A stretch of DNA of 29,861 nt from a bacterium. GTDB taxonomy: Bacteria > UBP15 > UBA6099 > JAJRTR01. The notes beneath the pieces are model-generated. The model searched no databases and was not told the DNA's origin. It saw nothing but the letters and a program-made list of their open reading frames with translations. Position numbers and translations under genes: made by a program. Location: positions 1 through 29,861 of the forward strand of contig JAJRTR010000106.1 of assembly GCA_024278215.1 (NCBI GenBank), in the 5' to 3' direction. Positions 923 to 29,767 of the stretch are shown piece after piece (positions within the stretch are counted from its first letter, which is position 1; the number at the start of each line of letters is the position of its first letter).

Positions 923-1035
923 TGCGCGGATGAAAACGCACGGCTTCATGCAGTCCGCATCCATCCGCCGCACTGATAATTGTATGGAACCCGGAAGTGA
1001 TCACAGGTTCCCGTGAGAATGAAAAAAAAGGCGCT

Positions 1036-1215
1036 ATCTCGCATATATTTTCACAGATGCGGGTGAAAAATCGGAAGAACGCCCATAATACAAGGTGTGG
1101 CAAGTGAGTGGTGAGGGAGCATACTGAAGGTATGTGACCGGTCCCGAATCGCCGCCGCAACGAAATAGAATGTGCGTTCACGCGATTTTCCGGATTTCTT
1201 TGTGAAAAATCCGGG
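1036..1215 (+). repeat. Dispersed repeat family A, full copy 1 (about 180 bp, hairpin at each end)
   Basis: This noncoding element lies between flhA and flhF. Its left end forms a hairpin (CGCAT 1040-1044 with ATGCG 1057-1061). Its right end forms an 8-bp perfect hairpin (CCGGATTT 1190-1197 with AAATCCGG 1207-1214). The same sequence recurs in reverse complement at 12280-12453, roughly 80 percent identical by eye. Shortened copies sit at 25260-25286 and 27731-27782. The core holds the shared stretch CGAATCGCCGCCGCAACG. The two end loops are complementary (TTCACAGA and TTTGTGAA, one G-U). The copy ends about 35 bases before the flhF start. No transposase is present in the window, so it would have to be a non-autonomous element or a structured intergenic repeat. 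Confidence 0.85.
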
Positions 1216-1249
1216 CTTTATCCGAAACAGGAGAAGAACGGCATTGACG

Positions 1250-9322: not shown

Positions 9323-9400
9323 ATGCCTGTTTATCCAGGTTTATCCAACACTTGCTCACGATATAAACAATCGACATTACCGCGGATACGATATAATATG

Positions 9401-9579
9401 GAGCCAATTGCAACATTATGTTTGAAACGAGCTCGAACGAAATTGTTCGGAAGCAAGGCGGAACTGCAATATCCCGGCAGGCGTACTTGTAGAGTACGTC
9501 GAGGAAGCTTTTATGCCGACAACGTAGCTGTTGACAATTGCAGCCGACCGCAGCCGAATCAGAATTTTGCAATTGGCTA
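9401..9579 (+). mobile_element. MITE-like element family B, full copy 1 (179 bp)
   Basis: Terminal inverted repeats begin GAGCCAATTGCAACATTATG and end CAGAATTTTGCAATTGGCTA. The core contains GAAGCAAGGCGGA, GGCGTACTTGTAGAGTACGT and GCAGCCGACCGCAGCC, all shared with the copy at 21243-21421, which has exactly the same length. The flanking four bases are TATG and TATA, a possible imperfect target duplication. No open frame in it looks real and no transposase is near. It sits between the terminator at 9291-9322 and the oxidoreductase gene. The 94 bases after it, before the next start, hold a short GGGG-CTA-CCCC hairpin and a CATAAT box at 9647, with no convincing -35. Confidence 0.88.
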
Positions 9580-9673
9580 TATAGATCCAACATCTTGAGG
9601 CTTGTTACACGGGATACCATGGGGCTACCCCGGGATCGAATTTCAGCATAATAGTTTTCACTGGAGGAGCGTG

Positions 9674-12234: not shown

Positions 12235-12279
12235 CAGGTTCCTCTCGCTTGCGATGCCGAAAGTTCCTGAACCCTTGCT

Positions 12280-12453
12280 CCGGATTTATCACAAAGAAAT
12301 CCGGAAAATCGGAAGAAGCCTATTCCACTGCGTTGCGGCGGCGATTCGGGATCGGTCACATACATGACAGTATGCTCCATCACCACTCACTTGCCGCGCC
12401 TTGTATTACAGGCATTCTCCCGATTTTTGGCCCGTATTGGTGAAATATGCGGG
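12280..12453 (-). repeat. Dispersed repeat family A, full copy 2 (reverse orientation)
   Basis: This is the reverse complement of the element at 1036-1215. End hairpins: CCGGATTT 12280-12287 with AAATCCGG 12297-12304, and CCCG 12431-12434 with CGGG 12450-12453. Inner arms also pair: read on the minus strand, AAAATCGGGAGAATGCC matches the complement of GGCTTCTTCCGATTTT. The element fills almost the whole space between two convergent genes and touches the TAA of the minus-strand gene at 12454-12456. In this place it could act as a two-way terminator. Confidence 0.87.
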
Positions 12454-13800
12454 TTACTCCCACTCGAGCACATCGTCGTCGGACAGACTGTCATCTTTGT
12501 CGACGGGGGTGGAGGCTGCGTTGTCGACGACGTAGCTGTGTCCGTGCATGGTGACGGCGGCGGACAGCGAGATGTCGCCGGGCAGGAACTCCGGTTTTGT
12601 CATGTCGCTGCCGGCGATGCGGATATTGCCGGTGAGGAAGATGATGGTGTCGTCTCCGGCAGGGCCCAGCAAGCTGCGGTCAATTGTCAGGTCGAGGTAA
12701 TTGCCGGTTAATTTGTAGCTCCAGCCTTCACTCTCGAATTTCAGGCATGAGAGAAAACGCTCGTCCATTTTTCCAAGATCGGATAAACTTTTCATATCGG
12801 CGACAGGGCAACCGGAGGCTTCGAGGTCGAGGTGCAGCATGTCGACACCATTGAGTTTTTCGATGCCCGGCAGAGGCGGCAGTATCTCGACGAGCGGCGC
12901 GTGATACCATACCCACAATCTCTCGATAAGATCGACGATCTCGCTGCGGTGTTTGTCGAGTTTCGCCATGTCGGGCGCTTTGTCCGGTTTCGCGTTTCGC
13001 AATTCTTTGAGTATTCCACGGCTCAGGATGAGCGAGCGGTTGAAGAGCACAAAGAAATATCCTTTCGCGTCGAGCGGCGACACTGTGCCGATCTCGACCG
13101 GGCTCTCGAATTCCATCCGGAAGTGATAGAAGTCGTCTTCATAGCCGAAGTCCATTTCGAGCAGATTCAAGTAGGACGGGATATCATATTCCGTGTCATC
13201 GTCGGTGTCATCATACATTCGGACAAGGTAGTCGTTGGGATAGGCATCGGCGAAATCTTCGTCGCTCATGTAGTACCAGTCGTCGGACATGGCGACATTG
13301 CCGGGCATCTCGCGGGCGATGTTGCCGACGGTGTCCACGGCTTCAATGTAATAGAGCACCCCGGTGCCCGCCGGTTGGCCGGGGATATACTCCGTCCATG
13401 ATATTTCGTTGTCTTCCTGCGACATTTCGATTTCTTCCCACGAGTCGCCGCCGTCGATTGAATAATAAATGTAAACTGAATCGACAGCTTCGAAGTCCTC
13501 GACGAACTTGAGGTGAGCGACATTCGCTGTTATGAGAACGTTTTCATCGGCGGCTGGGCGAACAGGTTTTTGTGTGACTTTTCGAATGATGGGTGGCAGA
13601 TGCCGGAAGAAATCCTCGATGCCTGTCATGCCGCCCATGCCGCCACTGAATCCCTTTGCCACTGCATTGCCCGGACAGAGCAGGAACACACTGAGGACGA
13701 GAGCGGAAAAAAACATGAAAATACGTGGAAATGATGAAGGGAAAGGTATTGGATTACCGTATCCGCGTGCATGACACTTCGAGTCGATTCGGATTTTCAT
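12454..13800 (-). CDS. Secreted beta-rich protein with N-terminal Ig-like domain, function unknown
   Basis: 448 residues. A Sec signal peptide is present: a long n-region with several Arg, a hydrophobic core (FMFFSALVLSVFLLCPG) and a likely cut after AVA near residue 48. A Gly/Met-rich stretch follows. Residues about 75-165 look like an Ig/FN3-type fold (YIYYSIDGGDSWEEIEM, then YYIEAVDTVGNIA), the kind used in bacterial surface proteins. The rest (about 190-440) is beta-rich with YHFRMEFESPVEIGT and LDLTIDRSLLGP, reminiscent of DOMON/CBM9-type sandwiches; this is a weak likeness. I chose ATG 13800 because AGAGGTG lies upstream, whereas Met29 (13716) has no ribosome site. The leader of this gene has unusual repeats (13802-13881). 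No catalytic motif is visible. Confidence 0.82.
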   Translation of the reverse strand: MKIRIDSKCHARGYGNPIPFPSSFPRIFMFFSALVLSVFLLCPGNAVAKGFSGGMGGMTGIEDFFRHLPPIIRKVTQKPVRPAADENVLITANVAHLKFVEDFEAVDSVYIYYSIDGGDSWEEIEMSQEDNEISWTEYIPGQPAGTGVLYYIEAVDTVGNIAREMPGNVAMSDDWYYMSDEDFADAYPNDYLVRMYDDTDDDTEYDIPSYLNLLEMDFGYEDDFYHFRMEFESPVEIGTVSPLDAKGYFFVLFNRSLILSRGILKELRNAKPDKAPDMAKLDKHRSEIVDLIERLWVWYHAPLVEILPPLPGIEKLNGVDMLHLDLEASGCPVADMKSLSDLGKMDERFLSCLKFESEGWSYKLTGNYLDLTIDRSLLGPAGDDTIIFLTGNIRIAGSDMTKPEFLPGDISLSAAVTMHGHSYVVDNAASTPVDKDDSLSDDDVLEWE

Positions 13801-21226: not shown

Positions 21227-21242
21227 ATGTATTATAAATAAT

Positions 21243-21421
21243 GAGCCAATTGCAAAATTATGTTCGAAGCGAGGTCGAACGAAATTATACAGAAGCAAGG
21301 CGGAGGTGCAAAAACCCCGCAGGCGTACTTGTATAGTACGTTGAGGAAGATTTTGCGCCGACAACGCAGCTATGGATAATTGCAGCCGACCGCAGCCGAA
21401 TCAGAATTTTGCAATTGGCTC
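21243..21421 (+). mobile_element. MITE-like element family B, full copy 2 (179 bp) with TAAT duplication
   Basis: The terminal inverted repeats GAGCCAATTGCAAAATTATG and (read from the other end) GAGCCAATTGCAAAATTCTG match at 19 of 20 positions. TAAT flanks both ends (21239-21242 and 21422-21425), as expected for a four-base target duplication. A second, inner inverted pair surrounds the centre (GCAAGGCGGAGGTGCAAAA and TTTTGCGCCGACAACGC), with GTACTTGTATAGTAC in the middle, so the whole element can fold into one long hairpin. It has split truB from ribF inside an operon. The same sequence is at 9401-9579. Confidence 0.92.
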
Positions 21422-21451
21422 TAATGAAGAGGAAAGTTCCGGAGCGGAAAA

Positions 21452-25249: not shown

Positions 25250-25259
25250 CTCTGAATCC

Positions 25260-25286
25260 AACCCGCATATTTTACCAATACGGGCT
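25260..25286 (+). repeat. Repeat family A, left-end hairpin only
   Basis: CCCGCATATTTTACCAATACGGG matches the left end of full copy 2 nearly base for base, but nothing of the core follows. It starts 13 bases after the pnp region ends. CCCG 25262-25265 pairs with CGGG 25281-25284. Confidence 0.7.
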
Positions 25287-25322
25287 AAAGATAGATATAT
25301 GAATGCTTCGCTCTCAGTCAAC

Positions 25323-27690: not shown

Positions 27691-27730
27691 GCATTTCTCT
27701 GTTTTCCTTTGTACGGGCATCGCATTTTAT

Positions 27731-27782
27731 CCCGCATATTTCACAAATGCGGTTTCCCGGATCTCTTTGTGAGAAATCCGGG
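27731..27782 (+). repeat. Repeat family A, collapsed copy with both end hairpins joined (52 bp)
   Basis: The left-end hairpin (CCGCAT 27732-27737 with ATGCGG 27747-27752) is followed after three bases by the right-end hairpin (CCCGGAT 27756-27762 with ATCCGGG 27776-27782). The 120-base core of the full copies is missing. The two loops are complementary: TCACAAA 27741-27747 against TTTGTGA 27766-27772. Confidence 0.85.
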
Positions 27783-28092
27783 TTATCTGATCTTCACATC
27801 CTTATCCCGTATTGTGCAAGATCGAAAAGAGGGGCGTTTTTGTGGGGACAATGCCTATTGGCGACATTTGCATTTTTTACAGTGCGGGAATTTGAAAAAA
27901 AACTTCCGCTTGTTCATCATAGATTGTTGACAGTACGCAACTCGCCGGTTTTGAGGCGGCTTCCGGTGACCGCGACTGCGCATATATTACGCAATAAATG
28001 TTTGTGCGAACACAGGTTGAAGCGCGGCACGGTGACCTCGCCCTTGTCTACACCTTTTCCGCGACTGTGGCACCTCTTCCGGGCGTTCGCTG
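27783..28092. other. Gap with no recognised gene
   Basis: About 310 bases. No frame here has a ribosome site and a protein-like pattern. Near the right end GCTGC and GCAGC flank a CTCGCTTC loop inside two direct GGCGTTC words. TTGACA at about 27935 lacks a -10 partner. Confidence 0.5.
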
Positions 28093-29547: not shown

Positions 29548-29596
29548 GAGCCAATTGCGGTCGAACACGGCAGAATCAGAATATTGCAATTGGCTC
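29548..29596 (+). mobile_element. MITE-like element family B, internally deleted copy (49 bp)
   Basis: It keeps both ends (GAGCCAATTGC and GCAATTGGCTC) plus GGTCGAAC from the left part and AGAATCAGAAT from the right part of the full 179-bp copies. The middle 130 bases are gone. Flanking bases AGTG and TGTG agree at three of four positions. Confidence 0.85.
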
Positions 29597-29767
29597 TGTG
29601 GATTATTAAATGGAGTTTTCAATATTGAACAGGACTTCGGGCTGCTGAAAAACCCCGAACTTATCCGTTTCCTGTTGAATCAATCTTTAAGTCAGGCGAT
29701 GAAAAAGAATTCCAGTATTTCTCCCATAATAGTAGTTAACAACATCAAGCTGCCAGTGACAGCCTGA
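29597..29767 (+). pseudogene. Possible 3' remnant of a gene cut by the family B element
   Basis: An open frame runs from the element through to a TGA at 29765-29767 with a protein-like text (FNIEQDFGLLKNPELIRFLL, then MKKNSSISPIIVVNNI). It has no start with a ribosome site after the element, and the upstream half of the frame is element sequence. It may be a broken gene tail, or a chance frame. The next 80 bases are AT-rich and hold no gene. Confidence 0.3.

Follow-up and report, generated by a model that had tools for sequence, protein, structure and literature searches.

At positions 27731-27782 of the window (the whole 29,861-nucleotide stretch of DNA analyzed here), two hairpins stand joined, and their loops read TCACAAA and TTTGTGA. 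The original prediction took them for the two ends of a transposase-free repeat, referred to here as element A, whose loops might kiss and whose kin might be REP/BIME or IS200/IS605-derived elements. The locus raises the questions of whether the loops pair for a function, what kind of element these hairpins terminate, and which transposase would act on such ends.

Forms, ends and target sites of element A

The joined hairpins are present as predicted: folded as DNA, the strand 27731-27782 reaches -14.3 kcal/mol (z -5.6), and none of 200 shuffles folded equally well. They make up a collapsed copy of element A (27727..27786, plus strand), in which TTAT, the left hairpin CCCGCATATTTCACAAATGCGG, a short joint, the right hairpin CCGGATCTCTTTGTGAGAAATCCGGG and TTAT follow one another; this copy is devoid of the core and retains a perfect 4-bp duplication (TTAT). 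The whole and single-hairpin forms that had been described alongside the collapsed one are also there (1036-1215, inverted at 12280-12453, and near 25262). By alignment of the best-scored copies and by folding, the full copy spans 1034..1219 on the plus strand, including its flanks CTAT (1034-1037) and CTTT (1216-1219), with the left end hairpin starting at 1038 and the right one running up to 1215. The full inverted copy occupies 12275..12457 on the minus strand including its degenerate flanks TTGC/TTAC (12279-12453 for the element itself), and the single left-type hairpin CCCGCATATTTTACCAATACGGG lies at 25258..25288 on the plus strand with the flanks CCAA/CTAA (25262-25284 for the hairpin itself). 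The inverted copy abuts the stop codon of a minus-strand ORF (12454-13800), so where this gene now ends may be a consequence of the insertion.

The ends, duplications and copy numbers of element A can be read directly from the sequences. A search of its own genome (4.55 Mb in 207 contigs) with the full copy returned at least 40 copies of an element of about 175-200 bp, which is too short for a transposase gene; the view of a transposase-free repeat with terminal hairpins and many genomic copies thus holds. It had also been remarked that the sequence belongs to no named family, and indeed neither element A nor its core had an Rfam match at the core in the loci scanned. Plasmid and phage copies were not found at blastn sensitivity. 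Aligned genome copies give a left end CCCGCATATTTCACCAATGCGGG and a right end that reads inward as CCCGGATTTCTCACAAAGAAATCCGG; the end consensus is CCCG[CG]AT[AT]T[TC]TCAC, with insertion at NTAN and a 4-bp duplication. The two-end pattern matched 860 genome sites, compared to 91 for the reversed pattern. A 1.13-Mb sample of the own genome, in which contigs already known to hold copies are over-represented and whose densities are therefore not genome averages, contains 37 inverted end pairs with a spacing of 46-227 bp. Identical 4-nt flanks, all of them NTAN, border 15 of the 37 pairs; 2000 shuffles gave 3.4 such pairs on average and never more than 10. Longer-spaced end pairs with matching flanks, between which a transposase gene would lie, were absent from this sample. 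Taken together, these data identify element A as a MITE that duplicates 4 bp of its target.

The same sample contains three collapsed copies with different junctions. Of 43 lone left-type hairpins, no more than 5 have the same flank on both sides (shuffled mean 2.9), and the idea that they are units with a duplication of their own was rejected; deletion products are therefore preferred. A subfamily of element A (L028-L031, L038, and L039) has a 24-nt insertion at the tip (AGCCGGCCAGCCGGCCTCTTGCGC and similar), which swaps the usual tip hairpin for another palindrome.

The loops of element A are more complementary than expected by chance. The longest loop-loop pairing covers seven nucleotides in 15 copies, five in 17, and three or four in the other five (n = 37, from the 1.13-Mb sample), and letter-shuffled loops pair over at least five nucleotides in approximately 10% of cases. 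This complementarity arises because both loops are the same part of the terminal inverted repeat. Covariation between the loop bases is absent: TTTCACCA, the left loop met most often, breaks the pairing with TTTGTGA, the right loop that hardly varies, and the left loop changes between C and A with no answering change in its partner. Only 15 of the 37 copies keep seven pairs and 22 pair over five nucleotides or fewer, and we accordingly abandoned the kissing loop as a functional structure.

An ERIC-type core in two MITE families

Between its end hairpins, element A has an extended, imperfectly paired hairpin whose tip hardly varies, laid out as AAGGCG...GGAGCNTAC-loop-GTAN'GTGAC...CAACGC. Elements in relatives of the same order are about 70% identical to element A over most of their length and have the same tip, GGGAGCATACTnnnnGTATGTGACCG. 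This tip resembled that of ERIC (enterobacterial repetitive intergenic consensus, also termed IRU or RU-1), and genomes were therefore scanned with the pattern GGAGCNTACN{3,8}GTANGTGAC. ERIC and element A have the same core, composed of the AAGGCG shoulder, the GGAGCTTAC-loop-GTAAGTGAC tip, and the CAACGC shoulder, but different outer ends and target duplications, and the host order of element A lies outside Enterobacterales. ERIC is described with TA duplications. Since the ends and NTAN duplications of element A differ from those of ERIC, element A is ERIC-like and not ERIC.

The fold of the core is borne out by covariation in two alignments. Among the aligned elements of the order, 95.8% of the cells are paired, versus 87.2% when shuffled and 28–49% when slid, and there are 122 double-change cells versus 44.5. 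The cross-phylum alignment (30 sequences, ERIC included) has 88% of its cells paired, versus 67% when shuffled and 28–40% when slid, with 168 double-change cells versus 60. The free N-N' pair is Watson-Crick in 162 of the 165 unique cores from other phyla (A-T 33, T-A 31, and G-C 98), and the shoulders AAGGCG and CAACGC, which lie outside the search pattern, are conserved and strand-specific. These strong compensatory changes support one fold common to element A, ERIC, and the cores of other phyla.

A covariance model of 98 positions, R1, was built from other phyla only, leaving out both Enterobacterales and the order of element A. It recovers the core of the full copy at 1078..1176 on the plus strand (59.4 bits, E 2e-15) and that of the inverted copy at 12317..12416 on the minus strand (64.5 bits, E 6e-17), the E-values of this model being rough, and it identifies 115 sites at E ≤ 0.01 in the own genome. 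None of the 34 enterobacterial loci tried escapes R1 (E-values between 9e-17 and 0.007); these loci had been fetched by the core pattern, and what this blind test adds is therefore the full 98-position fold around that pattern.

The window holds a second MITE with this core, family B. One copy lies at 21239..21425 on the plus strand, with the ends GAGCCAATTGCAAAATT, a length of 179 bp (21243-21421), and TAAT at both sides; another is at 9397..9583 on the plus strand (element 9401-9579, flanks TATG/TATA), and a right-end fragment lies at 29552..29603, also on the plus strand. R1 places the core at 21283..21379 (26.9 bits, E 1.1e-5) and at 9441..9537 (21.4 bits, E 4.6e-4), both on the plus strand. 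The tip of the family B core deviates (AGGCGTAC..GTACGTCGA), and its score is lower than that of element A. Family B measures 178–179 bp and has identical 4-nt flanks in 37 of 63 end pairs in the 1.13-Mb sample (shuffled maximum 8); its 4-bp duplication follows no sequence rule beyond A/T-richness. Elements A and B thus have the core in common and differ in their ends and target rule, and the outer sequences around the cores differ again in other genomes. The shared core, its covariation, and the two end types in one genome are direct readings of the sequences, and this modularity of core and ends is the most surprising result of our analysis. The first description of the repeat had missed the ERIC-like interior and the second family of the window that shares it.

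The core pattern is present in all seven genomes of the order and absent from the 379 other genomes of the set that was scanned alongside it. In a scan of species genomes, at least 116 stretches matched; among the matches listed are Enterobacterales (ERIC), Clostridia, Bacteroidales, deltaproteobacteria, Sulfurovum, Desulfovibrio, Spirochaetales, Lentisphaerae, and Coriobacteriales. A single genome has up to 133 pattern copies (a deltaproteobacterium), and other high counts are 56 and 39 (Bacteroidales), 39 (Lysobacterales), and 31 (a record titled Ruminococcus flavefaciens); the reversed control gave 0 in all 20 genomes tested. Several of the named core-bearing genomes come from metagenome assembly, and their record titles may be mistaken. 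The carriers include isolates (Porphyromonas uenonis and Desulfovibrio sp. A2), so the distribution is not only a matter of assembly contamination. R1 was also run on 110 genomes outside the order, almost every one of them from another family: 10 have the core at E ≤ 0.001, several of these with 8–33 copies, and at this threshold the model finds none in the other 100. The core family is therefore broad but patchy. Head-to-tail arrays of cores with a period of approximately 125–185 bp occur in genome G402 (contigs C222, C285, and C372) and at G405:C28:30686-31262. One locus, L050, has the core without IS1380 ends, and plasmid copies of this core-only element were not found at blastn sensitivity. 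A review places ERIC only in Enterobacteriaceae and Vibrionaceae (PMC10969869), and searches of openly licensed full text turned up no description of ERIC relatives in other phyla or of the element A family.

Strand and possible action of the core

Two features of the core are tied to one strand. A G-U wobble sits on the same strand in 30 of 30 aligned cross-phylum cores, although these were picked by a pattern that fixes both wobble bases and the count alone is not independent evidence; the same wobble bases recur in 24 of 24 aligned elements of the order, a set collected for the most part by similarity search or with that same pattern. The aligned sequences also keep tandem G-A mismatches on one strand. 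A site read in double-stranded DNA would have no obvious reason to keep such wobbles and mismatches, and on this ground we lean, by a small degree, toward a core that acts as a folded single strand, either as RNA or as single-stranded DNA.

The fold and the location of the cores bear on which of the two it might be. Two observations favour RNA. The strand with GGAGC folds as RNA to -62 kcal/mol, versus -51 for its complement, and cores in rRNA operons are always on the rRNA strand (five loci: L087, L124, L136, L151, and L152). Three Enterobacterales have the core in the 23S-5S spacer, Sporosarcina has it after 23S, and one Coriobacteriales genome has two cores just before 16S. An identification of the Enterobacter core in L136 as StyR-44 was rejected, because that core is in the 23S-5S spacer and StyR-44 lies before 23S. 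Against RNA, the right-hand gene in other phyla ends towards the core in 60 of 83 cases (p 6e-5, simple ORF calling), which makes the GGAGC strand antisense to that gene; Enterobacterales and the own genome, under the same ORF calling, are free of this bias. The orientation evidence on RNA versus single-stranded DNA action is thus mixed.

The same observations bear on a reading in which the core would have originated as an RNA-processing or pre-rRNA-type element of the host, been captured by MITEs, and act at the RNA level only. The rRNA-operon loci of Enterobacterales, Sporosarcina, and a Coriobacteriales genome, all five of which have the core in sense, and the better RNA fold of the GGAGC strand speak for such an origin, but most copies lie outside rRNA operons and the gene-orientation bias in other phyla is the opposite one, so we regard it as possible and yet rather unlikely.

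We give still less credence to the proposal that the core itself is the mobile unit, a single-strand element of the integron attC or REP kind that inserted into various MITEs and to which the ends are incidental. It would account for a core common to different ends in one genome, for the core without IS1380 ends at L050, and for the strand-asymmetric conserved mismatches; against it, full copies in the own genome bear A or B ends, the duplications sit at those ends, and no enzyme is linked to the core, and we consider it improbable.

Candidate transposase of element A and relation to ERIC

The own genome yielded no intact IS1380 transposase, only a C-terminal remnant with a stop. A relative, genome G006, has a complete IS1380-family transposase gene of 484 aa (PF13701, E 1e-147; NCBIfam IS1380 model, E 4e-114). 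This gene (L258, contig G006:C172) adjoins TTAA followed by CCCGGATATTTCACC, and beyond the other end is CATA followed by GGCGCATTTTTCACC; since the flanks differ (CATA/TTAA), this copy alone is not proof of an intact transposon. Another IS1380 element has the ends CCTGAATATCTCA/CCCGCTTCTCTCACC with TTAG at both sides, and a further one has the ends CCCGTCTTATTCG/CCCGTCCTATTCG with CTAA at both sides. The end motif thus recurs beside the G006 transposase gene and the NTAN duplication at two other IS1380 elements, which assigns element A, by its ends and its target rule, to the IS1380 type. IS1380 insertion sequences (L258 in G006; ISBdi2) and element A share CCCG.AT.TTTCAC or CCCG ends and the 4-bp NTAN duplication; unlike these insertion sequences, element A encodes no transposase and terminates in self-complementary hairpins. 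Given the unequal flanks in G006 and the mere remnant in the own genome, the link to an IS1380 parent rests on end similarity and the target rule. Empty insertion sites were not seen, and mobility is inferred from the duplications and the anatomy; judged by its ends, element A is most likely an IS1380-dependent MITE, which would have moved in trans. The IS1380 end at L258 and a MITE copy at L047 (G006:C22) have an identical left flank of approximately 90 nt, which would come from an assembly repeat or from the presence of two elements at a single site.

The kinship that had been proposed at first, with REP/BIME or IS200/IS605-derived elements, would have a Y1 transposase read the hairpin ends as single strands while their loops kiss. 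Terminal hairpins, strong in element A, are common to it and to REP/BIME-RAYT and IS200/IS605 derivatives, single-hairpin copies exist, and the Y1-type genes that had been suggested were found, six of them, in the genome. However, the element A ends show no visible excess near the four Y1 loci that were inspected (L375, L376, L377, and L378), where they are no more frequent than the genome-wide density predicts (a rough estimate). IS200/IS605 and REP/RAYT elements do not duplicate their target. Element A, in contrast, does so (15 of 37 pairs, above the shuffled maximum of 10), has the DDE-type ends of IS1380, and shows no covariation of its loop letters. An origin from IS200/IS605 or REP/RAYT elements is therefore not supported; the duplications largely refute it, and we hold it very improbable. 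Weakest is the reading of the ERIC likeness as convergence or chance (a short palindrome with GC-rich shoulders), which has in its favour that the exact shared string is short and which is refuted at the level of the tests above by the empty reversed-pattern control in 20 of 20 genomes, the conservation of shoulders absent from the pattern, and the blind recovery by R1 of all 34 enterobacterial loci over 98 positions, so that we find it scarcely credible.

Correia, RUP, and Nezha are short multicopy bacterial MITEs with inverted ends and a target duplication and without a transposase gene, and element A is like them in all these respects. We know of no case among them of a structured cross-phylum core that is common to two end types in one genome.

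Anatomy and sequence comparison make element A, in our judgment, quite probably a two-module MITE, with outer ends of the IS1380 kind and an ERIC-type core. Its outer module consists of imperfect IS1380-kind inverted repeats, each able to fold on itself, which an IS1380-family transposase would cut and join at NTAN with a 4-bp duplication; since the own genome has only a transposase remnant, element A would have moved in trans or be inactive now. Deletion of the interior would give the collapsed copies, and deletion of one end probably the lone hairpins. The inner module is the long imperfect hairpin, with its tip, G-U wobble, tandem G-A mismatches, and shoulders AAGGCG and CAACGC, and the same kind of core is borne by family B, by enterobacterial ERIC, and by repeats of several other phyla. 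As a separate module folded from a single strand, the core may be carried by different MITEs because it helps in their spread or in their tolerance, and we infer both its single-strand action and a benefit to the carrier.

ERIC has served for decades as a fingerprinting target; to our knowledge, no mover of ERIC and no role for its core have been described. New here are element A as a most likely IS1380-dependent MITE with an ERIC-type core and the reading of a superfamily with swappable ends. Within that reading, and with slightly more confidence than doubt, we suggest that a widespread bacterial superfamily exists to which ERIC belongs as its enterobacterial branch, in which a structured, strand-specific core conserved across phyla was adopted separately by unrelated MITEs with different ends and transposases, and in which the core, rather than the ends, would be the conserved functional unit. 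A core that occurs far beyond enterobacteria, and with at least two end types in a single genome, splits the question of what moves the element (its ends, IS1380-like here) from that of the purpose of the core, and the cross-phylum cores supply many independent natural versions in which both the mover and the role of the core can be tested.
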